DNA from: Moorella glycerini
GTDB lineage: Bacteria; Bacillota; DSM-521; Neomoorellales; Neomoorellaceae
Assembly: GCF_009735625.1 (NCBI RefSeq)
Contig: NZ_CP046244.1
Location: forward strand, 124,001 to 188,000
Direction of reading: 5' to 3'
DNA: 64,000 nucleotides
The notes beneath the pieces were generated by a model. That model was given only the letters and a program-made list of their open reading frames with translations. It ran no database searches and was not told where the DNA came from. The translations under genes and the position numbers were made by a program. This document shows positions 4,181 to 26,578 of this stretch, in pieces; the first letter of the stretch is position 1; every line of letters begins with the position of its first letter.

Positions 4181-7100
4181 TTAGCCTTCATCGGCTTTTT
4201 TTACTTTAACCTTCAAACCTTCTACCTCTAATATAACCACCCTTTGGCCTGCTGTAACGGGTTCCAAGCTTTCTGCGTGCCACCTCTCGCCTTCTGCCAA
4301 AATTATTCCTTCCGGACGGAGATCGGTTAGGGCTTTACCAATAGTCCCCACAAGGCTTTCCCGACCTGTTACCACAGGTCGCCCTCGTGCTTTTATTACG
4401 GCTCCCAGGAGGAAGGCAATAAAGGCCGCCATGCATACGGCCGTCACTGCTATCAGGCCGATATTTAGCCGCAGGTCCGGCGACCCGCCGCCAAAAAGCA
4501 TTAGCGACCCCAGAATAAAAGAAACCATACCGCCTCCCGCCAGCAGTCCATGGCTTACGACAAAAGCTTCCGCAGCCAGCAATCCTAACCCAAGGACGAT
4601 CAGCAATACACCGCCGAACTGAGCGTCAAGGCTGCCCAGGGCGTAAAGACCAAGCAACAAACCTATCCCACCGACAATTCCCGGAAAAACAGCCCCGGGA
4701 TGATATAATTCCATGATTAAACCAAGGCCGCCGGCTGTAAGGAATCGAGTAGGAGGGGGCGGCTAGCCCCCGTCCTCTCACACCACCGGACATGCGGGTC
4801 CGCATCCGGCGGTTCACCAAGCTTGACGAAGATAAGAATAGCGCTCGGTTAAGCTCATCAGGCCCTGGGATTGCCAGTAGGCATTGCCCAGGGCTCTATT
4901 CATTGGCCCATGGGCCATCCGCCACAGCCCTTTGCGGGCATTGGCGAATTCATGCACTACCCATTCCGGCAATCCCAATGCGCGTAGTTCGCGGTACCTG
5001 GTCCGTACTCGCTTCCACTGCTTCCAGAGACACATGCGCAGCCTCCGCCGCGTCCAGCTTTCTAAGTTCTTAAAGATGCTGGGCGTGTCGGCCAGGGCGA
5101 AGTACCCTATCCAGCCGCCCAGGTAGGCGTTCAGGCGCTCTATGCGCTCGGCCATCTTTAAGGGTTTATTCCGGGCGGTTATCTCCCGGATTTTCGTTTT
5201 CACCCGGTCGATGGTCTGCGGCGCCAGGCGGATAAGGATTACTCCTGCCTTGTGTTTGTACATGCTGAACCCCAGAAATTTCAGCTTCCACGGCCGGTCT
5301 ACCGCGCTCTTCTGCTCGTTGATCTTGAGCTTCAACCGCTCCTGCAGGAAGTTGCGGATACTGGCCATGACCCTTTCTCCTGCCCGTTTGCTTTTGACGT
5401 AGATGTTGCAGTCATCGGCGTAACGGACGAACTTGTGGCCCCTCTTTTCCAGTTCTTTGTCCAGGTCGTCCAGGAGTATGTTGGCCAATAACGGGCTTAA
5501 GGGTCCGCCCTGGGGCGTTCCTTCTGCCGTCTCCATGACCACTCCGTTTACCATGACGCCTGCCTGGAGATAGCGGCGGATAAGGGTAAGTACCCTCTTA
5601 TCTGCCACTTTCCGGGCCACCCGGGCCATGAGGATGTCGTGGTTTACCCGGTCGAAGTATTTCTCGATGTCCAGGTCCACGGCCCATTCGTATCCTTCTT
5701 CTACGTATTGCCGCGCCTTCTTTACCGCATCATGGGCTTTCCTTCCGGGACGGAACCCGTAGCTGGCCTCTGAGAACTGCGGTTCGAAGATGGGCGTCAA
5801 TACTTGCAGGAGGGCCTGCTGGATTAGGCGGTCCATTACGGTGGGTATCCCTAACATCCGTTTGCCTCCCCCGGGTTTCGGGATTTCGACCCGGCGCACG
5901 GGCTTCGGTCTGTAGGTTCCCGCGAGCAGTTCTTCCCGGATGCGCGGCCACTCGGCGCGTATTTGGTCCCGCAACCGTTCGGTCGGGATGCCGTCCACAC
6001 CGGGCGCGCCTCCGTTCCGCTCTACCCGTTTCAGCGCGGCCAGCATGTTCTCCCTGGCCACCACCTGCTCCATCAGGCCGCTACCTTGGCCTCCGCGAGG
6101 TGACGTCCCGCTTTGTGCCGGAGAAGAACTCGGCCCTCCCGCGCTCCCCCGTGGCTTCACCACTTCTTCCCGCGGGCAGGCCCCTTGCGGGGTTTTCTGC
6201 TGTCTCTGTCCTTCTCGCGAACGCACCGGTTTCACCTCTGACTTGATGTTCGGGCCTTCCCCTGGAGTTCATGACCCCCAGGGTACTATGCCCTCTGCTG
6301 ACTCCTGCCGGTTCAGCCGTACCTTCCGATACGGTTTACCAGCTCTCCCTGGCTTATCCGGCAGGCCTCCCCGGGTAAGAGCGTTAACCTTCGCCCCGTG
6401 CCCGCCCCATATACTCTACCGTCCCTTGGCAGCCTGGGATTTCGCTGTGTTCCGCCAGCTTATCCGAACGGTCTAGCCTCGTATGGGGTTCTTGTTCATC
6501 GGGCCGTGGCTTTGCCTCCGGCTTCCTTCGGATCCCACCTCGCGATGGACACCCTTGCCTTTGGCTAGCAGACTGGTGCTGCCTCGCCTGCAGTGGACTT
6601 TCACCACTAAGTTAACGCCCATGCCGGGCGCACGGATATATGCGATGTTGGGTTCGCTGATTTTAAAAAGCAGGCGTTGAACCGGGCTCATAACCAGGGA
6701 GTTAAGCGGGGCATCATCTAGCTTTAGCTCCACCTCCTTCCCGTCTATTAACGTAACCGTCCGCCCGTGAAGCTGTTTAAATAGCTCTTCCCTGCTGGCA
6801 GCCACCAGGTCAATCAGGTTAGCCTTTAATGCCTCGCCGTCACTAAAAGACTTGCTCTCCAGTACTGCCATTTCCGCCTGGGAAGGATCGCGACCCCGCA
6901 TCTGGGCAATGCTCCGCACCCAGGCCGCCGCATCCTGGGTTATCTTTTCCTTCTGCACATCGGTCATTTCTCCCTCCCCACCAACGGAAACCGGATGGGC
7001 GGCCCCTATCCTGCTGCCCGGAGCCATGGCCGCCACATGAGCCGAAAGGGTAATGAAGGTCCCCGCCGAACCGGCCCACGCCCCGGCCGGTGAAACATAG

Positions 7101-7393
7101 ACGATAACCGGCACCCGGGAATTCATAATGCATTCTACTATCTCCTGGGTAGTCCCGTACAGGCCTCCGGGAGTGTTTATTTCCAGGAGAACACAACCAG
7201 CTCCAGCCTCTTCGGCCGCCCGGATCCCTTTCCTTACATAATCCGCCACTACCGGCACGATAGCCCCTTCCACCCGCAGCAAGTATACCTCCTGGCCGGT
7301 TGCAGAAAATCCAGCCGGAATCCCGGCAAACAGCACCAAGGAAAATGTCAGGAAAAAAATAATTGTCAATCTCATTTTAACTAACTTGGTCAT
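4181..7393 (-). CDS. nfeD: NfeD membrane serine protease, gene split by a group II intron (exons 7393-6634 and 4743-4181)
   Basis: The gene is in two exons. Exon 1 (760 bases) encodes a signal peptide and a ClpP-like serine protease domain ([34 protein letters not shown]) and ends within NIAYI. Exon 2 (563 bases) continues with the remaining membrane segments and the soluble C-terminal OB-fold domain. Removing 4744-6633 joins ATATATCC to TCCTTACAGCC and reads [19 protein letters not shown] in frame without a stop; total 1323 bases, 440 residues, normal for long NfeD. Unspliced RNA would give a truncated protease reading into the intron. ATG at 7393 follows AGGGGA. The slipin gene follows, as is usual for NfeD. 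Whether splicing is efficient in the cell cannot be judged from sequence. Confidence 0.88.
4782..4813 (-). other. Group II intron domain V
   Basis: The minus strand reads ACCGCCGGATGCGG, a short loop, then CGCATGTCCGGTGGT. The nine outer bases pair (with one G-U), a two-base bulge follows on the 3' side, and an inner TGCG/CGCA stem is capped by a tetraloop. This is the catalytic domain V form. Aligned by eye to the usual GAGCCGGAUGCG, the triad reads CGC, a mark of group IIC introns. Confidence 0.75.
4814..6235 (-). CDS. ltrA: Group II intron reverse transcriptase/maturase
   Basis: This 473-residue protein is encoded inside the intron. It contains an RT domain with the polymerase active site YADD at residues 272-275 ([11 protein letters not shown]), the TPQGGPLSP motif at about 240-247 and [13 protein letters not shown] at about 158-170. 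A maturase (domain X) region follows ([16 protein letters not shown]...) and a basic tail. No HNH endonuclease domain is present. Such proteins promote splicing of their host intron and copy it into DNA. All visible motifs are intact, so the intron could still be mobile. Start is GTG at 6235; a second GTG three codons later is also possible. The stop codon abuts domain V. Confidence 0.92.
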   Translation of the reverse strand: MKPVRSREGQRQQKTPQGACPREEVVKPRGSAGGPSSSPAQSGTSPRGGQGSGLMEQVVARENMLAALKRVERNGGAPGVDGIPTERLRDQIRAEWPRIREELLAGTYRPKPVRRVEIPKPGGGKRMLGIPTVMDRLIQQALLQVLTPIFEPQFSEASYGFRPGRKAHDAVKKARQYVEEGYEWAVDLDIEKYFDRVNHDILMARVARKVADKRVLTLIRRYLQAGVMVNGVVMETAEGTPQGGPLSPLLANILLDDLDKELEKRGHKFVRYADDCNIYVKSKRAGERVMASIRNFLQERLKLKINEQKSAVDRPWKLKFLGFSMYKHKAGVILIRLAPQTIDRVKTKIREITARNKPLKMAERIERLNAYLGGWIGYFALADTPSIFKNLESWTRRRLRMCLWKQWKRVRTRYRELRALGLPEWVVHEFANARKGLWRMAHGPMNRALGNAYWQSQGLMSLTERYSYLRQAW

Positions 7394-7500: not shown

Positions 7501-7538
7501 AAAAAACGGGTAATCAGGATTGAAGCCCTGTCTACCCG
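7501..7538 (-). terminator. Rho-independent terminator after the TRAP-like permease operon
   Basis: On the minus strand CGGGTAgaCAGG pairs with CCTGatTACCCG around a short loop and is followed by TTTTTTG. It lies 33 bases after the stop of the small membrane protein gene and before nfeD, so it separates the two transcription units. Confidence 0.85.
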
Positions 7539-7570
7539 GAAAATAGATACTTTTTTAATTTACCTTTGCG

Positions 7571-7852
7571 CTATGCCGCTTTTCCGGTTTCTTTTTTTTC
7601 ATTATTATCCAACGTTAATTCATGACTTCCACCAGTGTAGAAGCTAAATAAACCGAACAGCACGCCGACGGCAGCTATCTTTATGGCGTAATCTAGCAAC
7701 TTTTTCCCCATAATGGCCATCTGGGTGGCCGTCTGGCCGCCGGCGATAAAACTCACCACAAATATGAAAGCCACTACCGCGCCGATGAGGACGGCAATGA
7801 AAACAAAGATGGCAAAAAGGTTGTCAAACAGATATATTAAGGCTTTTTTCAT
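7571..7852 (-). CDS. Small two-helix membrane protein, partner of the TRAP-like permease
   Basis: This 93-residue protein has two hydrophobic segments (about residues 10-37 and 58-73) and a charged tail. I do not recognise its family. ATG at 7852 has a GGAGGTGG site. It lies 22 bases downstream of the large permease gene and before a terminator, so it is the second gene of a two-gene operon. A small membrane subunit beside a large DctM-like permease is the usual TRAP layout, but DctQ proteins are larger (four helices), so the relationship is inference. No DctP-type binding protein is encoded nearby. Confidence 0.6.
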   Translation of the reverse strand: MKKALIYLFDNLFAIFVFIAVLIGAVVAFIFVVSFIAGGQTATQMAIMGKKLLDYAIKIAAVGVLFGLFSFYTGGSHELTLDNNEKKETGKAA

Positions 7853-7874
7853 TTATTCAGCCACCTCCGGAGAG

Positions 7875-9254
7875 TTAATTAATAAATATCGGTAAGATGC
7901 CGATAAGGAGTAAGAAGGTGATTACAAATTGACCAACTACCCAGACATAAGAAAGTTTGGTTGTCTCCCAAAACTTAGATTTTGCAATCCCCATAGCCGT
8001 ATACATGGCCAGGGCCAGGGGCGGGGTCATACCCTCCATTACGCCGGTTATGGCCGGCATAACTACAGCCACTAGGAAAGGATCAACGCCTACGGCTGCA
8101 CCCGTAGAAATAAAGGCTGAACCCAGGATAGCTACCTGCGAAGAACCTGGTAAAACCATGCCTAGGAAGGTGGTAAAGGTAACTATCAATAAGGCCCAGC
8201 CTACTTTACTCAGGCCGAAACTCAAGAACCATGTCTGAATTGCTTCGCTCATTTCTACTTTCTGGAACACCAGGGCAATGGCGTAGGCCAGGTAAATAGT
8301 AGCCGAAACCGGCACTACTCCTTTCAAGCTATCCCGGAACATGGCTAAAACGCTATGCAGGTTAAAGCCACCGGGTATCTCCTTGCGCCCAACGATAATG
8401 GTATAAAACGTACAAAACCCTGCCGCCATCAGCAACACCGAAGCCGAAAAAGCCTTGGCGCCGTCAGGACCATATCGAGCTATAAGGGTATTCTTAAAGA
8501 CGGAATCAATAATAATAGGCCCCAGGATGAAAACCGGAATTAAAAGAGCGCTCCAGCCTTCTTTGATGGCCCTAGCCAGATCTGGCCGCTCCTCTTTAGG
8601 TACAGGCTTAACCTTGTAATATTTGCAAAAAGCCAGCAGGGTGAGCCAACGATGTAGAATGAGCCAACCGAAAACAATATATAGCCCCAGCCAGAAAGTA
8701 GATAGGGAATACTTGTCTGGGTATAAAGTTGATAGTATGGCAAAGGCGACTAAATTTAGACCCGGGCCGACCTGGTTACCCAACATGCTGGCCGCCATTT
8801 CCACTGTTGCTGCCAGGTGGCGGGGAAAGCCGCTCCGGATCATGGCCGGGATGGTAAAAACACCGGTAGCCGCCACGTTGCCTGGCCCGGTACCGGTCAT
8901 GGCAGCCAGGGCGCAGCTGCCAAAAAGCGCCACATAACCGGCGCCACCTGGAACACCACCAATAATTGCTAAAATAATGTTAATTAATTTTTCCACCACC
9001 CTGGTTTGACCTAAAATATGGGCAAAGACCAGAAAGCCTACGATAATATAAAAGAGGCCGCTTGTGGTAGGTCCCAAAAGGCCCGACCAGAAGAGATCGT
9101 AGCGTCCCGTCATGACAATAGTGAAGGCAAAAGCAATGGCCATGGCCTCATAAATAGGTCGTTTAAAAGCTATAAAGACCAGGGCTATAACTATAAGCAG
9201 CTCAATTAACCAGAAGACCTGGATGGGGAAAGGTCCGACCATTTGGACTGGCAT
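7875..9254 (-). CDS. TRAP-type large permease (DctM-like) family transporter
   Basis: This 459-residue protein has about 11-12 hydrophobic segments. Two repeated halves carry motifs such as ALFGSCALAAMTGTGPGNVA with FTIPAMIRSGF, and FLGMVLPGSSQVAI with PAITGVMEGMTPPLALA; these resemble the IT-superfamily TRAP permeases (TIP-MxRxG and G-GxxxPP motifs). It would move an organic acid using an ion gradient; the substrate is unknown. ATG at 9254 follows GGGAGG. It heads a two-gene operon with the 93-residue protein. The lack of a periplasmic binding protein could mean a binding-protein-independent member of the superfamily. The C26 amidotransferase and the DASS permease upstream suggest a shared catabolic locus. 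Confidence 0.65.
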   Translation of the reverse strand: MPVQMVGPFPIQVFWLIELLIVIALVFIAFKRPIYEAMAIAFAFTIVMTGRYDLFWSGLLGPTTSGLFYIIVGFLVFAHILGQTRVVEKLINIILAIIGGVPGGAGYVALFGSCALAAMTGTGPGNVAATGVFTIPAMIRSGFPRHLAATVEMAASMLGNQVGPGLNLVAFAILSTLYPDKYSLSTFWLGLYIVFGWLILHRWLTLLAFCKYYKVKPVPKEERPDLARAIKEGWSALLIPVFILGPIIIDSVFKNTLIARYGPDGAKAFSASVLLMAAGFCTFYTIIVGRKEIPGGFNLHSVLAMFRDSLKGVVPVSATIYLAYAIALVFQKVEMSEAIQTWFLSFGLSKVGWALLIVTFTTFLGMVLPGSSQVAILGSAFISTGAAVGVDPFLVAVVMPAITGVMEGMTPPLALAMYTAMGIAKSKFWETTKLSYVWVVGQFVITFLLLIGILPIFIN

Positions 9255-9309
9255 ATATTAAACCTCCCTATTATAAATTCCATTTCCCCTATTTACCTGT
9301 CTTTCCCGT

Positions 9310-10038
9310 TTACCTGTACCTTGCGCTTGCATTTACCAGCCCTTTAAACAGCTCTAACCAAAACGGCTCCTGCAAAACCTCCGGATGGAATTGCACCCCC
9401 AAAACAAAATCGTGTTTTAGGCTCGCTATCGCTTCGATTATACCATCCGGCGCCCGGGCGACGACTGTAAACCCCGGGGGTGGTTCCTTGACCGCCTGGC
9501 GATGGAAGCTATTTACCATCGCTTCTTTTTTCCCGGTAAGCCTTGCCAGGATACCATCCATTTCTATCCTGTGAATAGTTTCTCCCGGCGGCCTGCTCCC
9601 CTGCTGATGCACAACGCCGCTATTCTCCGGCCGCTGGTGAATATCATCCAGGTACATGGTACCGCCGCAAAGGACACTTAAAACCTGGTGCCCGCGGCAA
9701 ATGCCCAGGATAGGTATATTCCTTTCCAGGGCACCCAGCAGGTAATCCCTTTCATTGGCAAAGCGCAGAGGGTTCTGGCTTTCTAAATCTTTAGCCCGAT
9801 TGCCTTCTAAAACATTGCGTTTAACACTTAGAACCTCGCCCGCGGCAATGAGGGCGTCAATGTTTTCTAAAATCTTCTGGCGAATTTCTGGATCATTGAC
9901 TACCGGTAGCAATAAAGGAATACCACCGGCCCTCTCTACCGCATCTACACAAGCTTTGACTGTGTAGACGAGGGACCAGCCCGGGACAACATTGCCCTGC
10001 TCCCAGCCGGTAGTTATACCAACACGCACGGCACCCAT
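9310..10038 (-). CDS. Class I glutamine amidotransferase-like hydrolase (peptidase C26, PuuD-like)
   Basis: This 242-residue protein has the C26 gamma-glutamyl hydrolase fold. The nucleophile Cys114 lies in ILGICRGHQVL and the catalytic His lies in VLGVQFHPEVL. Family members hydrolyse gamma-glutamyl amides such as gamma-glutamyl-GABA. ATG at 10038; a weak GAGGTG site precedes it. It lies between a DASS permease and a TRAP-like permease on the same strand, so it may process an imported gamma-glutamyl or amide compound (inference). Confidence 0.88.
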   Translation of the reverse strand: MGAVRVGITTGWEQGNVVPGWSLVYTVKACVDAVERAGGIPLLLPVVNDPEIRQKILENIDALIAAGEVLSVKRNVLEGNRAKDLESQNPLRFANERDYLLGALERNIPILGICRGHQVLSVLCGGTMYLDDIHQRPENSGVVHQQGSRPPGETIHRIEMDGILARLTGKKEAMVNSFHRQAVKEPPPGFTVVARAPDGIIEAIASLKHDFVLGVQFHPEVLQEPFWLELFKGLVNASARYR

Positions 10039-10186: not shown

Positions 10187-11638
10187 TTAAATCCATCCGT
10201 ATAACCAAGTCCAGTACGGAATGCTAACAAACATTAGCGCCAGATACGTGTATGACCAGACGGTTTCGGCTTTCCAGAATTTCTTATGATCGGGGAAATA
10301 TCCGCTCAACATGTATCCTACCCCATGACCAGCACCATATGGAGTCATCGCTCCAAAGCCTTCTTTAGTATGAATTAACATTATCCCAAACAACTGTACC
10401 GGAAATCCTGGGATGCCTTTTGCCACAGCTAACCAAAGAGGCATTAAAGTAGTTACATGAGCTGTTACACTCACATATAAATAGTGTATTAAATAATCAA
10501 TCGTAACTAAAATTATCAATATAAGAATCGGTGAAAGACCCAGTCCCGATACCCAGGCCGTCGAAGCTTTAGCGAGCCAATCTAAGAAACCCACATCTTT
10601 TAACCCATTGGCCAAGGTTATGAGTGTTCCTAGTACTATTAATATATTCCAGGCCGATTTTTCTTCCAGGACCTGTTCCCATTTAATAACACCTGTGACG
10701 ATCATCAATACTACTGCGATTATAGCGACCATTGCCGGCGGTATTATTTCATGGGCAAAAATCCAGGCAATCAATGCACATATAAAAATTATTAATGTGC
10801 TTATTTCTTTAAAAGAAAGTTTTCCCATTTTCTCTAGTTCTCCGCTAGCCCACACAGGTGCTTCGGGAAACTTCTTTATTTCCGGCGGGAAGAATTTATA
10901 AGCAATCAGGGGAGTTATTATTATCAATATTACTGCCTGGGGAATGAAACCATAGAGGTAACTTATCCACGATATAGGGGGCAAACCTGTTGCTTTAGAA
11001 ATATATTCTGTGGCTAGGACACTCATTGCAGCAGCCGTTAGGAACGTAGAACTCGAAATGAACGTCGCTAAAAATGATGTAAACAGAAGAAATGAGCCTA
11101 TCTTAGACGCCGTTTCACCCGGGTGGGACCCCAGAGCTTCAGCTGTAGACCTTGCGATTGGGTACATGGTACCAAAACTACGAGCTGTGTTGGATGGCAT
11201 GAATGGTCCTAAGGCTAAATCGGCCAGGGTTATAGCATAGCCAAGGCCCAGCGAGTTTTTACCTAACTTTTTTATAAGCCATAAAGCTATTCGCCGCCCT
11301 ATTCCTGTGTCTTTAAGCGCCACTGCAAATATCATTGCCGCAAACACAAGCCACACTACGCTGTTCGAAAAACCCGATAGTGCCCACGCTAAAGTATCCT
11401 TGGGAGCCTTGTTAACGAGGTTCAGGCCCCCTATGATGGCTACACCGGTTAATCCTACGGCTCCCATAGGCATGACTTCCAAAGCAACACCAATAATTAC
11501 AGCCACAAACAGAGCAAAATAATACCATGCATAAGGTGCCAGACCCGCAGGTCGAGGGATAAGCGCAATAACTATTCCGACAACAATAGGTATTAGTGCT
11601 TGCAGGATTTTAGATTTTTCTTCTGTTCGTGATGTCAT
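10187..11638 (-). CDS. DASS-family (SLC13/CitT-type) dicarboxylate or anion permease
   Basis: This 483-residue protein has about 12 membrane segments. The paired DASS signature Ser-Asn-Thr type motifs are visible as FMPSNTARSFG in the first half and YVSVTAHVTTLMPLW in the second. Family members import di- and tricarboxylates or sulfate with Na+, or exchange them. ATG at 11638 has an AAGGAGGAAGG site. A 9-bp palindrome lies 22-52 bases upstream of the start. Substrate is undetermined; the AtuA/DUF4387 enzymes beyond the IS remnant are candidate catabolic partners. Confidence 0.87.
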   Translation of the reverse strand: MTSRTEEKSKILQALIPIVVGIVIALIPRPAGLAPYAWYYFALFVAVIIGVALEVMPMGAVGLTGVAIIGGLNLVNKAPKDTLAWALSGFSNSVVWLVFAAMIFAVALKDTGIGRRIALWLIKKLGKNSLGLGYAITLADLALGPFMPSNTARSFGTMYPIARSTAEALGSHPGETASKIGSFLLFTSFLATFISSSTFLTAAAMSVLATEYISKATGLPPISWISYLYGFIPQAVILIIITPLIAYKFFPPEIKKFPEAPVWASGELEKMGKLSFKEISTLIIFICALIAWIFAHEIIPPAMVAIIAVVLMIVTGVIKWEQVLEEKSAWNILIVLGTLITLANGLKDVGFLDWLAKASTAWVSGLGLSPILILIILVTIDYLIHYLYVSVTAHVTTLMPLWLAVAKGIPGFPVQLFGIMLIHTKEGFGAMTPYGAGHGVGYMLSGYFPDHKKFWKAETVWSYTYLALMFVSIPYWTWLYGWI

Positions 11639-11719: not shown

Positions 11720-11990
11720 TGAGGTATCCTCTGGGACAATCACGGTAGAACCGATGGCGGGGCAGTTCAGTTCCTCCTGCACTTCCTAAAGTGCTTGGTA
11801 AGACTGCTCCCCGGGCCTGGCGGCAACCGCTTACGCGCGGGTCGCACGCCCTTTAGAGGTTCTCCCTTCAGCAAGGAGCTGCGCACCAGTCTCTTAAGGG
11901 TCGGTGCTCATCAGCAAGGTTGCTGTTACGTCAGGTTCCTAGGGATACCCCAATTTTGGTTTGCTAAATCCCCGGGAAAGGAGGTGTTTT
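11720..11990 (+). ncRNA. Candidate bridge-RNA region of the IS110-family element
   Basis: This GC-rich non-coding stretch lies directly upstream of the transposase start. In characterised IS110 elements (IS621) the equivalent 5' region encodes the bridge RNA that pairs with target and donor DNA. Several self-complementary segments are visible, for example CCTAAAGTGCTTGG. The call rests on position and family knowledge only; no bridge-RNA loop could be assigned. Confidence 0.35.
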
Positions 11991-11993
11991 GCT

Positions 11994-13158
11994 ATGGGAA
12001 AAACCCTTTTTGTCGGTATCGATATAGGGTCCGACACCAATGTGGTGCGCATCCTTGATGATACCGGCGAAGATGTCTGCGGTTTTAGCGTTTCTAACGA
12101 CCTCCCCGGGGCTGAAAGGCTTGTGGAAAGGATTGTTGCTGAAGCTGAGTTACTTGATGCTGATAAGATTGAGATTGGCATGGAGGCCACTAACCTCTAT
12201 TGGTGGCACCTTTCCCAGGCCCTGCATGAGGCTCCTGAACTCTCGGCATTTGCTGCGGAAATAGCGGTGATTAACCCCAAGGTGATTGACGGCTTTAAGC
12301 TTATCTACCCGGATATGGCTAAGACCGGCGCCTTGGATGCCCGGGTTATTGCTGATTGCTTGCGGTTTGGACGGGTACGTCCAACACCCCCTCCTGATAT
12401 GACCTATGCTCCTTTGCAACGGCTTACCCGGTTTCGCTATCACCTGGTCAGTAACCTCACTCGTGAGAAGAATAGGGCCCTCAATCTGATATTCCTTAAG
12501 TTTTCTACCTACCAGAAGGAGTGTCCCTTCTCCAATTTGTTCGGGCAGGCCTCCCGGGCTGTCGTTGGCAACCTCACCCCTGATGAAATTGCTAATATGC
12601 CGGTGGAAGAACTGGTCGATATGATGCTTGAGCACGGTAATAACCGCTTGAAGGATGTCCCGGAGATGGCCAGAGTTATTAAACAGGCGGCCCGCAATTC
12701 CTACCGTTTAAACCCTAAAATGCGGGATGCTGTTGATGTTACCCTGGCCATGTCCCTGGAAACCATCCGCTTCTTTGAAACCCAGCAGAAGAAAATCGAC
12801 CAGATCATTGCTAAAGAACTAAAAGCCATTCCCCAAACGTTAGATACTGTTCCTGGTATCGGGCCGGTTTACTCTGCCGGCATAATAGCCGAAATTGGTG
12901 ACATCTCCAGGTTTAAGAACCACAATGCCCTTGCTAAATTCGCGGGCCTGACCTGGCGGCAGCACTAGCAAGTTCACTGCCGAGGATATCCCCTTAACCA
13001 TGTCCGGTAATTATTACTTACGGTACTACCTCATTGAGGCGGCTAATTCCGTCCGGGTGCGGGAGCCGGAATATGCCGCGTTCTACCGCAAGCTTGTGCG
13101 CATGGTCTTCACGCTGCTGAGTGAGGGCCAAATCTACCGCCACAGGAGGTTGGGTTAA
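11994..13158 (+). pseudogene. IS110-family transposase, frameshifted and internally deleted
   Basis: The ATG at 11994 has AAAGGAGGTG upstream. The N-terminal RuvC-like DEDD domain is intact to the eye (FVGIDIGSDTN, IGMEATNLYWWHL, GALDARVIADCLRFG). The C-terminal Transposase_20 domain starts (VPGIGPVYSAGIIAEIG, FKNHNALAKFAGLTWRQH) but meets TAG at 12966. Reading then continues in another frame from 12967 (SKFTAEDIPLTMSGN..., stop 13156-13158), so the frame is shifted near the expected catalytic serine. A second lesion follows: PEYAAFYRK is joined directly to LVRMVFTLL, about 20 or so residues shorter than intact relatives as I remember them. The gene is almost certainly inactive. Confidence 0.85.
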
Positions 13159-13579
13159 ACATTTCTTTAAAGTTTACTTTTAGTGTTTGTGCTGGCAATT
13201 ATTGTCTCGGTTTGCGGCTTGATTTCTTATTGCCTTTTTACATTTTAAGACATTAAAATTTCCAATTCAGCGTCTTGACATTTTACCGCGGGTCTTATTA
13301 TGAGTAATAATCAAGCAACATACAAACCTATCTGTAAACAAATTAAATAGTAAATAAACATAGTAGCCAGTTTTTTATTATTATATACAGTTAATGGTTT
13401 TCTCACTTCCTCTCTTCCACTTCTGTCGGGAAAGTAACACCAATTGCCATAAACGTAAGGAAGCGCGTCAATTTAGCCTTATAACCCCCCCCTGTCGTTG
13501 TAATTACTTGTTATAATATGTTGCTTATTCTATTCTACATGCCCGGCGTTTTTCCTGCCGGCTATAGAATTTTTTTTAT
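13159..13579. other. Gene-free AT-rich interval with second copy of the dispersed repeat
   Basis: No coding region or RNA gene was recognised here. Positions about 13230-13290 hold the second copy of the AT-rich repeat also seen at 3335-3390. The rest is low-complexity AT-rich sequence between the IS110 remnant and the terminator of the GntR gene. Confidence 0.4.
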
Positions 13580-13627: not shown

Positions 13628-13674
13628 TAATTCAGGCTACATTATGCCATTTGCCAGGTATTTGTCATTACTAG

Positions 13675-14472
13675 TTATATTGTTTTTCCCCGGTTAACCG
13701 GCCGGGTTATATAGAAACTGTATTTATCCCCGCGGTAGGCCGCCCGTTTATATTCTACCGGCCGCCCCTCCGCTGTATAGACCAAGGAGGTTACCAGGAG
13801 CAAGGGTTCGCCTGGCTTAATATCCAGGACACGCGCCTGTTCTTTACGCGCAGCAACGGCCTCAAAAGACTGGGTCACCATAGCCGGAGCCGGCAAACCA
13901 GCTTTTTCATAGAGGTCGTACGTGGAAAAAGCTATTTTTTGCCGACATAACTCCCGAGCCAGGGCTGCCAATTGTTGTCCCAGTTCTCCTTCAAAGTAGG
14001 AAATGTAATAGACCATAGGTTCATTATTACCCAGGCCCAGGAGCTCCAACCGGATTACGCTGGTGGCAACGGGAAGAGCCAGTACAGTGGCCAGGTGATA
14101 ATCCGCCGCTACCAGGCTGGCGTCCAGGTACCGAGTGGACGGTTCCAGGCCTTTACTCCGTAAGGTCTCTTCAAAAGGGGTTACCCTTACTAGTTCCTGC
14201 TGGATGCGGGGGCGAGCGACAAAGGTGCCTTTACCATGACTGCGGTAAATTAGACCTTCCCTGGCAAGTTCCCCCAGAGCCTGGCGCACCGTAATCCGGC
14301 TGACATTATACATGGCACAAAGCTCTTTTTCGGACGGCAGGCGCTCACCGGTCTTCAATATACCGTTTTTGATCTGTGCCGCCAGGGCATCTTTCAATTG
14401 TTGATAGAGAGGTATCGATTTTTCTGGTGATATCTCCCCATGCCCGATAATGGGAAGCACTTTTTCTGTCAT
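13675..14472 (-). CDS. GntR-family (HutC-type) transcriptional regulator
   Basis: This 265-residue protein has an N-terminal winged helix-turn-helix (LPSEKELCAMYNVSRITVRQALGEL, about residues 45-70) and a UTRA ligand-binding domain (VTPFEETLRSKG, to LVTSLVYTAEGRPVEYKR). The ATG at 14472 is chosen because GGAGG lies seven bases upstream; a TTG two codons earlier is less likely. It is divergent from the AtuA-family gene at 14680, and the shared 207-base region holds a palindrome, so it probably controls that pair in response to a pathway metabolite (inference). Confidence 0.92.
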   Translation of the reverse strand: MTEKVLPIIGHGEISPEKSIPLYQQLKDALAAQIKNGILKTGERLPSEKELCAMYNVSRITVRQALGELAREGLIYRSHGKGTFVARPRIQQELVRVTPFEETLRSKGLEPSTRYLDASLVAADYHLATVLALPVATSVIRLELLGLGNNEPMVYYISYFEGELGQQLAALARELCRQKIAFSTYDLYEKAGLPAPAMVTQSFEAVAARKEQARVLDIKPGEPLLLVTSLVYTAEGRPVEYKRAAYRGDKYSFYITRPVNRGKTI

Positions 14473-14640
14473 AGCCAATCCTCCACAACCGATAACATTA
14501 TTGTAATAACAAGCTTAACATAACACAAACGGTAAATCAATATTGGGAAAAACTTTAAGCCAGGGATGCCATAAATAATATCCCAATTTTTTTATTCAGC
14601 CAGCAGGAAAAATGCCAGGTATGTAGAATAGAATAACAAA

Positions 14641-14656
14641 CACGTTATAACACGTG
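14641..14656. promoter_or_regulatory. Palindrome in the GntR/AtuA divergent promoter region
   Basis: CACGT and ACGTG form perfect arms around TATAAC, 24 bases before the ATG of the AtuA-family gene. The position suits an operator of the divergent GntR regulator that blocks the promoter or the ribosome-binding region of 14680. Confidence 0.5.
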
Positions 14657-14679
14657 ATTACATCATGGAGGGATGAATT

Positions 14680-16047
14680 ATGACAAAAAAACCTTTGCGC
14701 TTTCTCTGTCCCAACGGCCACCTGGGCTTTGCTCCCATCAAGACCGGTAGCTTTTACCGGGGCGTTGAGACCAAGCCCGATTTTATCCTTGCCGACTCCG
14801 GCAGTGACGACATCGGTCCCGGACCTTTAGGTTCCGACACCTCTACCAGCCCTTTGGAATGGCAGAAACACGACCTGGAACATATGCTGCTGGCCGCCCG
14901 TAAACTGGGTGTCCCCATGATCATCGGTTCCGCCGGCGACACCGGAACCAATAGCCGTGTCGACCTCTACGTCAACATTATTAAGGAACTGGCCGAGAAA
15001 CACGACTTACCTAAATTTAAAATCGGTTACTTCTATTCAGAAGTAAGCAAGGACTACCTGGCCCAAAAAATGAAAAAAGGACAGGTTATCAAAGGCCTGG
15101 ACGGCCGCCCTGACCTAACCCCGGAAGAGCTGGATAAGACCGACCGCATTGTTGCCGTGGCCGGGGTCCATCCCTATATTAAACTTCTGGACATGGGCGC
15201 CGACGTTATTATCGGCGGCCGCTCCAGCGATTGTGTTATTTTTGCTGCCCCGGCCATCCGCGCCGGTTTTCCGGAGGACCTGGCCTACTACCTGGGTAAG
15301 GTTCTGGAGTGCGCATCCTTCTGCGCCGAACCTTATGGTGGAAAGGAGACGGTTATCGGCACCATTACCGAAAAGGAAGTCCTGGTTACGGCCATGCATC
15401 CAGAGCAGCGCTGCACAGTGGCTTCGGTAGCCGGCCATGCCATGTACGAAAGATCCAACCCCTACTACGAGTATGTCCTGGGCGGCATGCTGGATATGAG
15501 CAACTGCCGTTATGAGCAATATGACGAAAAGACCTGCCGTATTACCGGGCCGAAATTTATTCCCTCGGACGAATGGCGGGTGAAACTGGAGGGTTCCGGC
15601 AAGGTAGGCGAGCGCTACATCGGTATTGCCGGCATCCGTGATCCTTACACTATCCAGAACATCGACAAGGTTATCGAGTGGGCGAGGGCCCAGGCCCGGG
15701 AACGTTTCGGCGATACAGGTTATGAGCTCCACTACCATGTTTTTGGCAGGAACGGAGTAATGGGCGACCTGGAACCGGTTAAAGAGATCCGCTCCCATGA
15801 ACTCTGCATCGTCGTCGAGGGTATCGCTCCCACCAAAGCCATGGCTGAAGAGGTCGCCATGATTGGTACCCGCCAGATGTTCTATGCTCGCCTGCCGGAG
15901 GTTAAAGGCACTGCCGGTGGTGCCGCTTTTGTCGTCGACGAAGTGTTGCCGGCTTCACCAGCCTATATATGGACAATGAACCATACAGTTGCCCTGGATG
16001 ATCCTATGGAACTCTTCCCCACCTTTCTGACAGAAGCGGGAAAATAA
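14680..16047 (+). CDS. AtuA/DUF1446-family protein
   Basis: This 455-residue protein resembles the DUF1446 (acyclic terpene utilisation AtuA) family. Recognisable segments are DFILADSGSDDIGPGPLG, IIGSAGDTGTN, GADVIIGGRSSD and VPKR-like regions further on; the fold suggests an acyl-CoA or hydroxy acid related enzyme but the reaction is not firmly known. The ATG at 14680 has a GGAGGG site. The DUF4387 gene follows 13 bases after the stop, a pairing seen repeatedly in bacteria. Together with the divergent GntR regulator it forms a small catabolic unit of unknown substrate. Confidence 0.8.
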   Translation: MTKKPLRFLCPNGHLGFAPIKTGSFYRGVETKPDFILADSGSDDIGPGPLGSDTSTSPLEWQKHDLEHMLLAARKLGVPMIIGSAGDTGTNSRVDLYVNIIKELAEKHDLPKFKIGYFYSEVSKDYLAQKMKKGQVIKGLDGRPDLTPEELDKTDRIVAVAGVHPYIKLLDMGADVIIGGRSSDCVIFAAPAIRAGFPEDLAYYLGKVLECASFCAEPYGGKETVIGTITEKEVLVTAMHPEQRCTVASVAGHAMYERSNPYYEYVLGGMLDMSNCRYEQYDEKTCRITGPKFIPSDEWRVKLEGSGKVGERYIGIAGIRDPYTIQNIDKVIEWARAQARERFGDTGYELHYHVFGRNGVMGDLEPVKEIRSHELCIVVEGIAPTKAMAEEVAMIGTRQMFYARLPEVKGTAGGAAFVVDEVLPASPAYIWTMNHTVALDDPMELFPTFLTEAGK

Positions 16048-16060
16048 GGAGGTAATATCA

Positions 16061-16384
16061 ATGGCTACTGAAAAACTGATCAACCTTGCCAAGACCATCC
16101 GCAGTAAAAATGCCGGTACAGATAAAATTACCTTTGACATTATTTTCCGGGAAAAGGAAAACTACGAGCTGGTTAAAAAAAGCGGCGTCCTGACCCCGGA
16201 AACTATATGCAAGCTTTATGGTATTAGTCAGGAAAGAATTGTCGATTTTGTTGAATTCGATCCTGCTTATGCTATTAAATTTACCATTTACCGGCAGCGC
16301 CCCAGCGGCAGCCCGGGGGAATCCGATGTCTTTGGCTGCCAGCAGTACGCCCCCTTGCTGGATCTCGAAATACCGTTAGAATAA
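16061..16384 (+). CDS. DUF4387-family protein
   Basis: This 107-residue protein matches my recollection of DUF4387, the small protein that usually follows AtuA/DUF1446 genes (LAKTIRSKNAGTDKITFDIIF, FDPAYAIKFTIYRQRPSGS, DVFGCQQYAPLL). ATG at 16061 with AAGGAGGTAATATCA upstream. It ends 19 bases before a strong terminator, closing the two-gene operon. It is probably a subunit or partner of the AtuA-family enzyme (inference from constant adjacency). Confidence 0.8.
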   Translation: MATEKLINLAKTIRSKNAGTDKITFDIIFREKENYELVKKSGVLTPETICKLYGISQERIVDFVEFDPAYAIKFTIYRQRPSGSPGESDVFGCQQYAPLLDLEIPLE

Positions 16385-16402: not shown

Positions 16403-16433
16403 ATCCCGGACATTTAAGGTCCGGGATTTTTTT
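16403..16433 (+). terminator. Rho-independent terminator of the AtuA/DUF4387 operon
   Basis: ATCCCGGAC and GTCCGGGAT form a perfect 9-bp stem with a seven-base loop and are followed by a run of seven T. Confidence 0.92.
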
Positions 16434-16455: not shown

Positions 16456-16707
16456 TTAAAAATATAAATCCCTTTCGCCCGCAGCAATGCGCTCCAGGCG
16501 GCGTTCGGTTTCGGCCCGGATAGCCGCATTTGGTATCTGAGCCAGGTGCTCCCTGATGGCCGCTTCCCCTGCCTTCCGGGTGGCCGGCCCGGCGTAGTCC
16601 AACAGGTATTCTTTAAAGGTCAGGATGGCGTTGGGCTGGCACACATGCTGGATCTTGCTGGTTTTGGCCAGGGCCATGAAGCGGTCGCCGATTTCAAACT
16701 GGGGCAC
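16456..16707 (-). pseudogene. Remnant copy of the hydG 3' end, internally deleted
   Basis: This 83-codon open frame copies the last part of hydG (25175-26578) in the same orientation. Over about 245 aligned bases I count roughly ten differences. It joins PQFEIGD directly to RFMALAKT, lacking 32 codons (96 bases, equivalent to 25410-25505 in hydG). The lost stretch is bounded in hydG by two copies of GGTCGCCG and contains two of the three cysteines of the CX2CX22C auxiliary cluster. It cannot make a functional HydG. Together with intact hydG it brackets the kdp block as direct repeats. Confidence 0.9.
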
Positions 16708-25174: not shown

Positions 25175-26578
25175 CTAGAAATATAAATCCCTTTCGCCGG
25201 CGGCGATGCGCTCCAGGCGGCGTTCGGTTTCGGCCCGGATAGCCGCATTTGGTATCTGAGCCAGGTGCTCCCTGATGGCCGCTTCCCCTGCTTCCCGGGT
25301 GGCCGGCCCGGCGTAGTCCAGCAGGTATTCTTTAAAGGTCAGGATGGCGTTGGGCTGGCATACATGCTGGATCTCGCCGGTTTTGGCCAGGGCCATGAAG
25401 CGGTCGCCGGTGCGGCCGCGGCGGTAGCAGGCCGTGCAGTAGCTGGGGAGATAGCCCCGCCGGCAGAGGTCACCTATCACCTCATCCGGGTGGCGGTGGT
25501 CGCCGATTTCAAACTGGGGCACATCGTCGCCGTTCTCAGTATAGTGGCGGCCGTAGCCGCCGACGCCGGTGCAGGAACCGGCGCTGAGCTGGGAAATGCC
25601 TAAAGCCAGCAGTTCCGTCCGCAGCTCCGGCGTCTCCCGGGTGGAAATGATCATGCCGGTATAGGGCACGGCCAGGCGAATAATGGCTACTATCTTCTTA
25701 AAGTCCTCATCGTTAACCAGATAAGGGAAATTATCCAGGCTAATACCGTAAGCCGGCCGCAGGCGGGGAACGGAGATGGTATGCGGCCCGACGCCGAAGG
25801 TTTGCTCCAGGTGCCGGGCATGGTAGAGCAGGCCCATAACCTCAAATTTATAATCGTAGAGGCCGAAGAGGACCCCCAGGCCCACGTCGTCAATGCCCCC
25901 CTCCATGGCGCGGTCCATGGCCGTAGTGTGCCAGTCGTAGTCCGCTTTAGGGCCGCCTGGGTGCATGTAGGCGTAAGACGGCCGGTGGTAGGTTTCCTGG
26001 AAAAGGATGTAAGTGCCGATGCCGGCGGCCTTCAACTGGCGATAGGCGTCCACGGTGGTCGCTGCGATATTGATATTGACCCGGCGGATGTTGCCGCTGG
26101 CCTCGGTGATGTGGTAGACGCGGTCGATGACCTCCAGGACGTAATCCAGGGGGCAGTGCACCGGGTCTTCTCCCGCCTCCAGGGCCAGGCGCTTGTGCCC
26201 CAGGGACTCCAGGATGCGTACCTCCCGCTCCAGCTCCGCCGGTTCCAGGCGGCGGCGTTCAAATTTGTTGTCCCGCCGGTAGCCGCAGTAGCGGCAGTTG
26301 TTAACGCAGTAGTCGCTGAAGTAGAGGGGGGCAAAAAGAACCATGCGCCGGCCGTAGATCTTTTCCTTTATTTCCCGGGCGGCGGCAAACATCTGCCGGC
26401 GCACACCTGCATCATCACTCTGGAGCAGAACGGCCACCTCGTAGGGCTCCAGGCCTTGGGCTTCCCGGGCCTTGGCGACAATGCGGGCAGCCTCATCTAT
26501 CGTTGCCCGTTTGGCTTCTTCCAGGTAACCTTCTATCTCTTCATGATCGATAAAGCCGGCATGATAACCGCTTTGCAT
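25175..26578 (-). CDS. hydG: HydG, radical SAM [FeFe]-hydrogenase maturase (tyrosine lyase)
   Basis: This 467-residue protein cleaves tyrosine to supply CO and cyanide ligands for the H-cluster. The radical SAM CX3CX2C motif is at residues 91-98 (DYCVNNCRYCGY). The C-terminal auxiliary cluster motif CX2CX22C is present (CTAC to QHVC). The ATG at 26578 has GGAGGCAATTTCC upstream; an ATG-equivalent five codons earlier lacks a site. hydE is 139 bases upstream. The 3' end is duplicated as a remnant at 16456-16707. Confidence 0.96.
   Translation of the reverse strand: MQSGYHAGFIDHEEIEGYLEEAKRATIDEAARIVAKAREAQGLEPYEVAVLLQSDDAGVRRQMFAAAREIKEKIYGRRMVLFAPLYFSDYCVNNCRYCGYRRDNKFERRRLEPAELEREVRILESLGHKRLALEAGEDPVHCPLDYVLEVIDRVYHITEASGNIRRVNINIAATTVDAYRQLKAAGIGTYILFQETYHRPSYAYMHPGGPKADYDWHTTAMDRAMEGGIDDVGLGVLFGLYDYKFEVMGLLYHARHLEQTFGVGPHTISVPRLRPAYGISLDNFPYLVNDEDFKKIVAIIRLAVPYTGMIISTRETPELRTELLALGISQLSAGSCTGVGGYGRHYTENGDDVPQFEIGDHRHPDEVIGDLCRRGYLPSYCTACYRRGRTGDRFMALAKTGEIQHVCQPNAILTFKEYLLDYAGPATREAGEAAIREHLAQIPNAAIRAETERRLERIAAGERDLYF

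Follow-up and report, generated by a model that had tools for sequence, protein, structure and literature searches.

A citramalate lyase-like AtuA/DUF4387 pair in Moorella glycerini belongs to a separate clade with its own regulator, importers and amide hydrolases

We analysed a 64,000-nucleotide stretch of the Moorella glycerini genome (assembly GCF_009735625.1, contig NZ_CP046244.1, positions 124,001 to 188,000 of the forward strand; hereafter the window, whose own coordinates are used throughout), focusing on a gene pair for an AtuA-family protein and a DUF4387 protein that lies next to a GntR-type regulator gene. According to predicted structures, the two proteins are the large and small subunits of the citramalate lyase (CmlAB) fold. 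They belong to clade W, a real and conserved subfamily of this lyase family for which we found no study and which comes with a well-defined candidate regulon. On balance we favor the view that clade W is a CmlAB-fold lyase for some other small carboxylate, that it forms a sister subfamily outside the methylaspartate pathway, and that it is the core of a substrate-induced uptake module. The genes at the center of the analysis are:

13675 to 14478, minus strand: HutC-type GntR regulator with a GntR helix-turn-helix and a UTRA ligand domain (Pfam GntR 1.2e-22, UTRA 4.2e-29)
14680 to 16047, plus strand: AtuA-family large subunit, clade W of the CmlA family, 455 residues (Pfam PF07287, 73 bits)
16061 to 16384, plus strand: CmlB-like DUF4387 small subunit, after a 13-base gap following AtuA (Pfam PF14330, 133 bits)

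Every domain assignment at this locus is strong. An earlier, sequence-only reading had described a clean two-gene operon diverging from a HutC-type regulator, and both the coordinates and the Pfam domains, with the GntR helix-turn-helix followed by UTRA, bear this description out. The M. glycerini genome contains a single AtuA and a single DUF4387 match, and AtuA of named Moorella species is 94-95% identical to the window protein. A terminator-like stem lies at 16403-16427, although such sites are not commoner there than in shuffled sequence (3 versus 2.8).

The family identity of the pair comes from the PDB. The only match of the window AtuA below E 0.001 is chain A of 9erq, citramalate lyase subunit A (cmlA; E=2.6e-74), and the only such match of DUF4387 is chain B of the same entry, cmlB (E=8.7e-24). 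Whole-length comparison of the models agrees with this: AtuA (predicted local distance difference test score, pLDDT, 93) fits 9evf_A with a template-modeling (TM) score of 0.92, a Z of 49.8 and a root-mean-square deviation of 2.3 over 448 residues, and DUF4387 (pLDDT 95) fits 9evf_B with a TM score of 0.92 and a deviation of 1.3. Further structural matches of the AtuA model, mostly to the stretch of about residues 309-429 and with Z under 9, were set aside. The citramalate lyase assignment is based on the PDB entry names and on the title of 9evf, 'Citramalate lyase - ADP - pyruvate complex', in which the mention of ADP suggests that a nucleotide possibly has a role in the reaction. The statement in the sequence-only reading that AtuA and DUF4387 have no firmly known reaction is thus outdated, because 9erq and 9evf name CmlA and CmlB as citramalate lyase; our literature text searches returned no paper on CmlAB among the matches listed, and one could have been missed.

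In Escherichia coli O157, ECs_0760 and ECs_0759 are 92% and 84% identical to the 9erq chains, and they lie in one run with genes for glutamate mutase, methylaspartate ammonia-lyase and ECs_0757, which corresponds to the FumD of a 2015 paper (PMC4682846, in the portion available). The same portion mentions, downstream of mal in E. coli O157, a DUF1446 gene whose function was unknown and, as far as it extends, leaves the fate of citramalate unanswered (PMC4682846). The window proteins align with these orthologs over nearly their full length at ~32% (AtuA) and ~48% (DUF4387) identity. In the E. coli O157:H7 Sakai record (L265:8934-10618), ECs_0759 and ECs_0760 carry the annotations acyl-CoA synthetase and 3-methylaspartate ammonia-lyase, neither of which seems to be right.

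Our survey of the family started from 216 loci, from which one without an AtuA anchor over 300 residues (L191) and 13 duplicates were removed to give 202 loci distinct by AtuA. The 80 named loci are the best 80 of 95 found with the window protein and favor clade W; to these were added full-length clade-W hits, some of them duplicates of loci already included, and 22 hand-picked hits of lower identity. Hits in G075, G113, G273 and G158 and a fragment in G370 fall outside the survey, and the order and class names of genomes were read from named loci within them. Identities to the window AtuA are distributed bimodally, none of the first 176 loci lying at 45-50%, and clade W, defined by at least 50% identity to the window AtuA, comprises 107 of the 202 loci, the window among them. 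Clade-W AtuA proteins are 30-37% identical to CmlA (101 of 107 loci measured), and the remaining 95 loci divide into 61 that are at least 50% identical to CmlA, the CmlA clade, and 34 that are more distant. A quick 110-row tree, which included 54 of the 107 W, 21 of the 61 CmlA-clade and all 34 other loci, places W on one side of a branch with a support of 100 in the Shimodaira-Hasegawa-like approximate likelihood-ratio test; 9erq falls among the CmlA-clade rows and the window pair outside them.

The two clades have 43 AtuA residues in common that are fixed (over 97%) in W and CmlA sequences alike, and DUF4387 starts within 100 bp after AtuA in 93 of 107 W loci. Residues specific to one clade include D87 and R404 in the window numbering, both gained in W and present in 107 of 107 sequences, and such residues argue, at the level of sequence, for a changed substrate in W. 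Genomic context separates the clades as well: glutamate mutase (GlmE) and methylaspartate ammonia-lyase (MAL) occur near 44 and 47 of the 95 non-W loci, respectively, and near none of the 107 W loci. The 34 distant loci (e.g. L245, L246, L248-L264) belong to neither clade; DUF4387 lies downstream in 32 of them and their neighbors are mostly different, and the family therefore probably holds further functions. One genome carries two clade-W AtuA copies within 9 kb (L225; G515:C1:3732398 and 3740905).

Clade W has neighbors of its own, several of which are found in the window on the far side of the regulator:

7571 to 7852, minus strand: 93-residue membrane protein, companion of the DctM-like permease (no Pfam match; homologs in 34 of 107 W loci)
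7875 to 9254, minus strand: DctM-like permease of the TRAP large-subunit family (Pfam 1.2e-47)
9310 to 10038, minus strand: PuuD-like amide hydrolase of the class-I amidotransferase fold (Peptidase C26, Pfam 3.1e-49)
10187 to 11638, minus strand: DASS symporter of the sodium-dicarboxylate type, added in this lineage (NCBIfam dass, 355 bits)

The two organic-acid type transporters and the amidotransferase that the sequence-only reading had seen nearby are therefore present as the DASS, DctM-like and PuuD-type genes. Genes within 9 kb of AtuA were labeled by BLAST clustering of open reading frame (ORF) calls, with Pfam and NCBIfam run on cluster representatives. By this measure a homolog of the window GntR accompanies 64 of 107 W loci versus 12 of 95 others, a PuuD-family gene 37 versus 0, and an importer of any kind 89 versus 11. 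The importers differ in type: the DctM-like permease is found in 45 W and 7 other loci, SSF symporters in 30 and 3, oligopeptide-type binding proteins (SBP5) in 31 and 2, and DASS in 5 W loci. The sequence-only reading had tied the transporters and amidotransferase to the pair and had named a neighborhood survey as the way in which this idea could fail; in the survey, regulator and transporters are conserved in clade W and scarce around other AtuA genes, and the link to the PuuD family is borne out. When loci were grouped into 80% clusters, the enrichment was kept for PuuD (11 of 39 versus 0 of 70), SBP5 (20 of 39 versus 2 of 70) and a second amidase family, AAT (7 of 39 versus 0 of 70), and also for GntR (16 of 39 versus 11 of 70, p 0.005). 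No DctP-type binding protein occurs among the annotated recurrent neighbors, and the DctM-like permease with its 93-residue companion may therefore be an unusual two-part carrier. Of SBP5-type binding proteins, M. glycerini encodes one, and its gene is far away from the module.

At least one of four amide hydrolases (PuuD, AAT, Amidohydro_3 or M20) is found at 54 of 107 W loci versus 1 of 95 others. Several loci of Rhizobiales and others of the same class have an AAT-family amidase beside Opp genes in the place of PuuD; at other loci the substitute is an Amidohydro_3 protein, for which NCBIfam gives a general amidohydrolase subfamily model as the best match. Two kinds of hydrolase occur together in only 1 of 61 fully flanked W loci versus 6.1 in shuffles (fraction 0.0006), a test that ignores relatedness, and in 0 of 29 representatives of the 80% clusters versus 2.5 expected (fraction 0.025), where relatedness is taken into account. 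These unrelated enzymes thus seem to replace each other.

A candidate operator may link the regulator to these genes. The relevant sites, given without strand, are:

14644 to 14661: operator candidate of tandem octamers, GTTATAAC-N2-GTGATTAC, in a 10-bp register, 36 bp before the AtuA ATG
14641 to 14656: palindrome CACGT-N6-ACGTG, overlapping the tandem operator, its arms not conserved in relatives
14503 to 14510: lone octamer GTAATAAC in the GntR-proximal part of the intergenic region, GTCATAAC in five aligned relatives (L129-L132, L051)
13664 to 13681: third, weaker operator-like site over the GntR 3' end, 10 of 12 fixed positions (L131 counterpart at 6717, 11 of 12)
13500 to 13517: stranded second operator, 11 of 12 fixed positions (L131 counterpart 12 of 12, 30 bp before PuuD)

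The sequence-only reading had proposed CACGT-N6-ACGTG as the operator. This palindrome has one match in the window and none in 100 shuffles. In the 201-bp intergenic region, inverted repeats with 5-bp arms are in general about as frequent as chance predicts (2 seen versus 2.4 in shuffles), but a G+C-rich one with a 6-bp spacer is seldom produced by chance (1 seen versus 0.01 in shuffles). In the aligned GntR-AtuA intergenic regions of relatives, however, the CACGT arms vary and what recurs is a set of GTNATNAC-like octamers in a 10-bp register. An operator candidate at the promoter thus stands, but the palindrome was dropped as the operator proper because the conserved element is the tandem octamer. 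The exact GTNATNAC tandem precedes AtuA in 17 of 64 W loci with GntR versus 0 of 43 without, and at least one octamer does so in 46 of 64 versus 2 of 43, against backgrounds of ~0.15 and 0.08 per 310 bp; the motif was first defined from the window and its relatives, which are included in this comparison. Judged by its sequence conservation near the regulator's own gene and its target, and by its occurrence together with GntR, the tandem GTNATNAC pair is a candidate GntR site. With its GntR helix-turn-helix and UTRA domain the window regulator resembles HutC-subfamily repressors, but it differs in that the conserved site here is this tandem pair in a 10-bp register and in that 0 of the 25 NCBIfam matches listed reach their cut-off. 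In the relative L131 the exact tandem also lies 30 bp before PuuD, and the genes for PuuD, the DctM-like permease and the small protein there therefore probably belong to the same regulon. At L225 an exact tandem lies 10 bp before an AtuA-type ORF in the two-copy stretch.

Comparison with relatives shows that the window locus has been rearranged. Window 7507-10026 (PuuD, DctM, small protein) aligns to L131 at 85% and 13662-14699 (GntR to the start of AtuA) at 74%. Between these two blocks lie the DASS gene and an IS110 element, both absent from L131 and L133, which cut the PuuD-type operator at 13500 off from PuuD:

11961 to 13158, plus strand: IS110 transposase region, flanked by the stranded operator and the DASS-PuuD-DctM genes, with a frame break after 12968

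The transposase frame stops prematurely at 12968, the C-terminal part being encoded in a different frame, and a second genomic copy of the element is 98% identical over most of its length. The relatives L129-L133 have an SSF symporter after DUF4387, the M. glycerini genome has no close homolog of it (best 27%), and DASS probably replaced this symporter in the window lineage; DASS also follows the AtuA-DUF4387 pair in L097, L212 and L213. At the position of the relatives' SSF gene, between DUF4387 and a kdpE-like gene, window 16457-16690 is a 234-bp copy (95.7%) of 25176-25409, the 3' end of a downstream radical-SAM gene named HydG/ThiH-like from reading its sequence; this copy is a recombination scar. 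Farther away, an nfeD-type gene is in two parts (4181-4714 and 6473-7393), and between them is a reverse-transcriptase/maturase-like ORF at 4814-6235 whose sequence reads as that of a probable group II intron protein.

Given that clade W forms a separate branch and has its own switch, importer and amide-cutting enzyme in many relatives, it probably breaks down an organic acid. In the mechanism that we infer, an importer (DctM-like permease plus small protein, DASS, SSF or an Opp ABC system) would take up an organic acid, either free or conjugated as an amide or peptide, and the amide would be opened by PuuD or, in other species, by an unrelated amidase. AtuA/DUF4387, acting as a carbon-carbon lyase independent of coenzyme A (CoA), would then cleave the freed hydroxy acid to a 2-oxo acid and a shorter acid. 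Until its ligand is present, the HutC-type GntR protein would repress both the AtuA operon and the PuuD-transporter operon through the tandem GTNATNAC sites.

Several observations weigh against this picture. Among fully flanked W loci, 23 of 61 have none of the four hydrolases, the apparent exclusion of one hydrolase by another comes in part from shuffles blind to relatedness, and the enrichment of DctM is lost at p 0.05 in the 80% clusters (9 of 39 versus 7 of 70, p 0.09). The exact tandem is missing from 47 of the 64 W loci with GntR, 18 of which have no octamer at all upstream of AtuA. DASS and the broken IS110 copy part PuuD and the permease from the regulator in the window, where the module may therefore be partly uncoupled; AtuA itself was found in only 4 of 10 genomes of the same genus, 2 of the 10 being incomplete. 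Finally, 28 AtuA positions are conserved over 90% in each clade yet differ between W and CmlA, so that the reaction itself could differ; CmlA R62, R239 and R404, present in 61 of 61 CmlA-clade sequences, are H64, Q243 and V408 in W.

The leads on the substrate disagree, one pointing to glutarate and the other to citramalate, and a C5-dicarboxylate-related acid is most likely. One tentative proposal goes further than the reading that we favor: clade W would be an undescribed lyase, possibly nucleotide-dependent, whose substrate is not citramalate, and an imported amide conjugate would be hydrolyzed by the interchangeable amidases and cleaved to give glutarate or a similar C5 dicarboxylate. A related and somewhat doubtful idea is that the product of the module is glutarate or another C5 dicarboxylate freed from an amide conjugate and then degraded by the host's own glutarate route. 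Conjugates that could connect PuuD with glutarate would be, for example, glutaryl- or gamma-glutamyl-amides. Two glutarate routes are named in the available part of PMC5974017, via L-2-hydroxyglutarate and via glutaryl-CoA dehydrogenation. Consistent with the first, genes for LhgO (L-2-hydroxyglutarate oxidase) and GlaH (glutarate dioxygenase) follow DUF4387 on the same strand in five W loci (L079, L106, L107, L108, L228), and L106 LhgO and L079 GlaH, the one of each scanned, exceed their NCBIfam cut-offs. In the Bacillus-type order of L106, GlaH is present in 5 of 7 W genomes versus 36 of 341 others (Fisher p=3e-4, phylogeny ignored), counting the 41 genomes with matches of E below 1e-90; 45 are over the family cut-off, the extra four being weak and none a W genome. 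The sole GlaH match in the genomes of L106, L108 and L079 is the module's own. The two W genomes of that order that lack GlaH, L104 and L225, carry genes for a family-III CoA-transferase and for an acyl-CoA dehydrogenase near PuuD, assigned by clustering only in L225; in L104 the named PDB entries closest to these proteins are those of SUGCT (succinate-hydroxymethylglutarate CoA-transferase) and of a glutaryl-CoA dehydrogenase. These L104 proteins are, however, below the NCBIfam cut-offs, the dehydrogenase has as its first PDB hit an acyl-CoA dehydrogenase whose entry names no substrate, and the two enzymes could serve methylsuccinate or itaconate. The association is also limited to one order plus L079. 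Within that order, GlaH lies beside the pair in 3 of the five GlaH-bearing W genomes but on a different contig from AtuA in 2. Of 10 W genomes searched for GlaH, those of L106, L108 and L079 among them, 7 lack it. The GlaH-LhgO genes, or genes that resemble those of the glutaryl-CoA route, flank some clade-W modules of Bacillus-type hosts, but none was seen by the window locus.

Rather unlikely, in our estimation, is that the pair is a plain citramalate lyase that carries out the CmlAB reaction (citramalate to acetate and pyruvate) on citramalate or mesaconate that is imported and not derived from glutamate. The window pair does resemble CmlAB in its two adjacent subunits, gene order, full-length fold and 43 common fixed residues, and its identity to the E. 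coli O157 orthologs fits this idea. In one W locus, L101, class I fumarase genes lie downstream, and such fumarases form citramalate from mesaconate (PMC4682846, in the portion available). Upstream of AtuA in L083 are a CoA-transferase, an acyl-CoA dehydrogenase, a MaoC-type hydratase and a RipC-like lyase, a set that resembles an itaconate/methylsuccinate cluster (PMC12290011, in the part available). The RipC-like and CoA-transferase matches of L083 are nevertheless below the NCBIfam cut-offs. We rejected L083 as a proven itaconate cluster, its CoA-transferase being closer to 4-hydroxybutyrate CoA-transferases than to PDB 3qli, which we take to be Yersinia RipA. Against plain citramalate cleavage, the pair differs from CmlAB in its clade, in sequence (~32% and ~48% identity) and in the 28 clade-specific substitutions, including loss of the basic CmlA R62, R239 and R404 and gain of window R404 and D87. 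Its partners differ too: MAL or GlmE is found in 0 and FumA in 1 of 107 W loci, the pair has its own regulator, importer and amidase partners, and the amide hydrolases would be left without a role.

It is very improbable that the regulator, transporters and amidotransferase are chance neighbors of a two-gene enzyme operon; the IS110 element and the lineage-specific DASS gene do split them in the window, but their enrichment over 107 W versus 95 other AtuA loci is strong, and the AtuA and PuuD upstream regions of L131 have the operator-like site in common. We give almost no credence to the idea that the window protein is the AtuA of the acyclic terpene pathway, itself tentatively assigned in the literature (PMC4847356, in the part available), and dropped it: the two have the Pfam family PF07287 in common, but the window protein has a separate DUF4387 partner and a specific match to CmlAB, is 455 residues long versus 615 (table of PMC4847356), and has no terpene genes seen nearby, with no biotin-dependent carboxylase or other atu gene among the annotated neighbor representatives, which cover part of the neighboring genes.

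The name PuuD also calls for care. The window protein resembles the gamma-glutamyl-GABA (gamma-aminobutyrate) hydrolase PuuD in being a Peptidase C26 protein with 6vtv (PuuD) as its second PDB match, but it scores 90.5 bits against an equivalog cut-off of 266, and no putrescine-pathway genes were seen among the annotated neighbors.

A CmlAB-fold lyase for another small carboxylate at the core of an inducible uptake module thus remains the explanation that we favor. The analysis tells apart two enzymes that have been under one annotation, and a pair with a 'domain of unknown function' becomes a lyase that can be tested; a correction of the annotation would follow for the CmlAB orthologs of E. 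coli O157 Sakai. The search for the substrate gains handles as well: the operator could be used in reporter screens, a candidate regulon is defined, the partner enzymes seem to stand in for one another, and glutarate offers a lead to the product. If clade W indeed proves to be an undescribed lyase that yields glutarate or a similar acid, it would be the core of a widespread catabolic pathway feeding C5 dicarboxylate into central metabolism.

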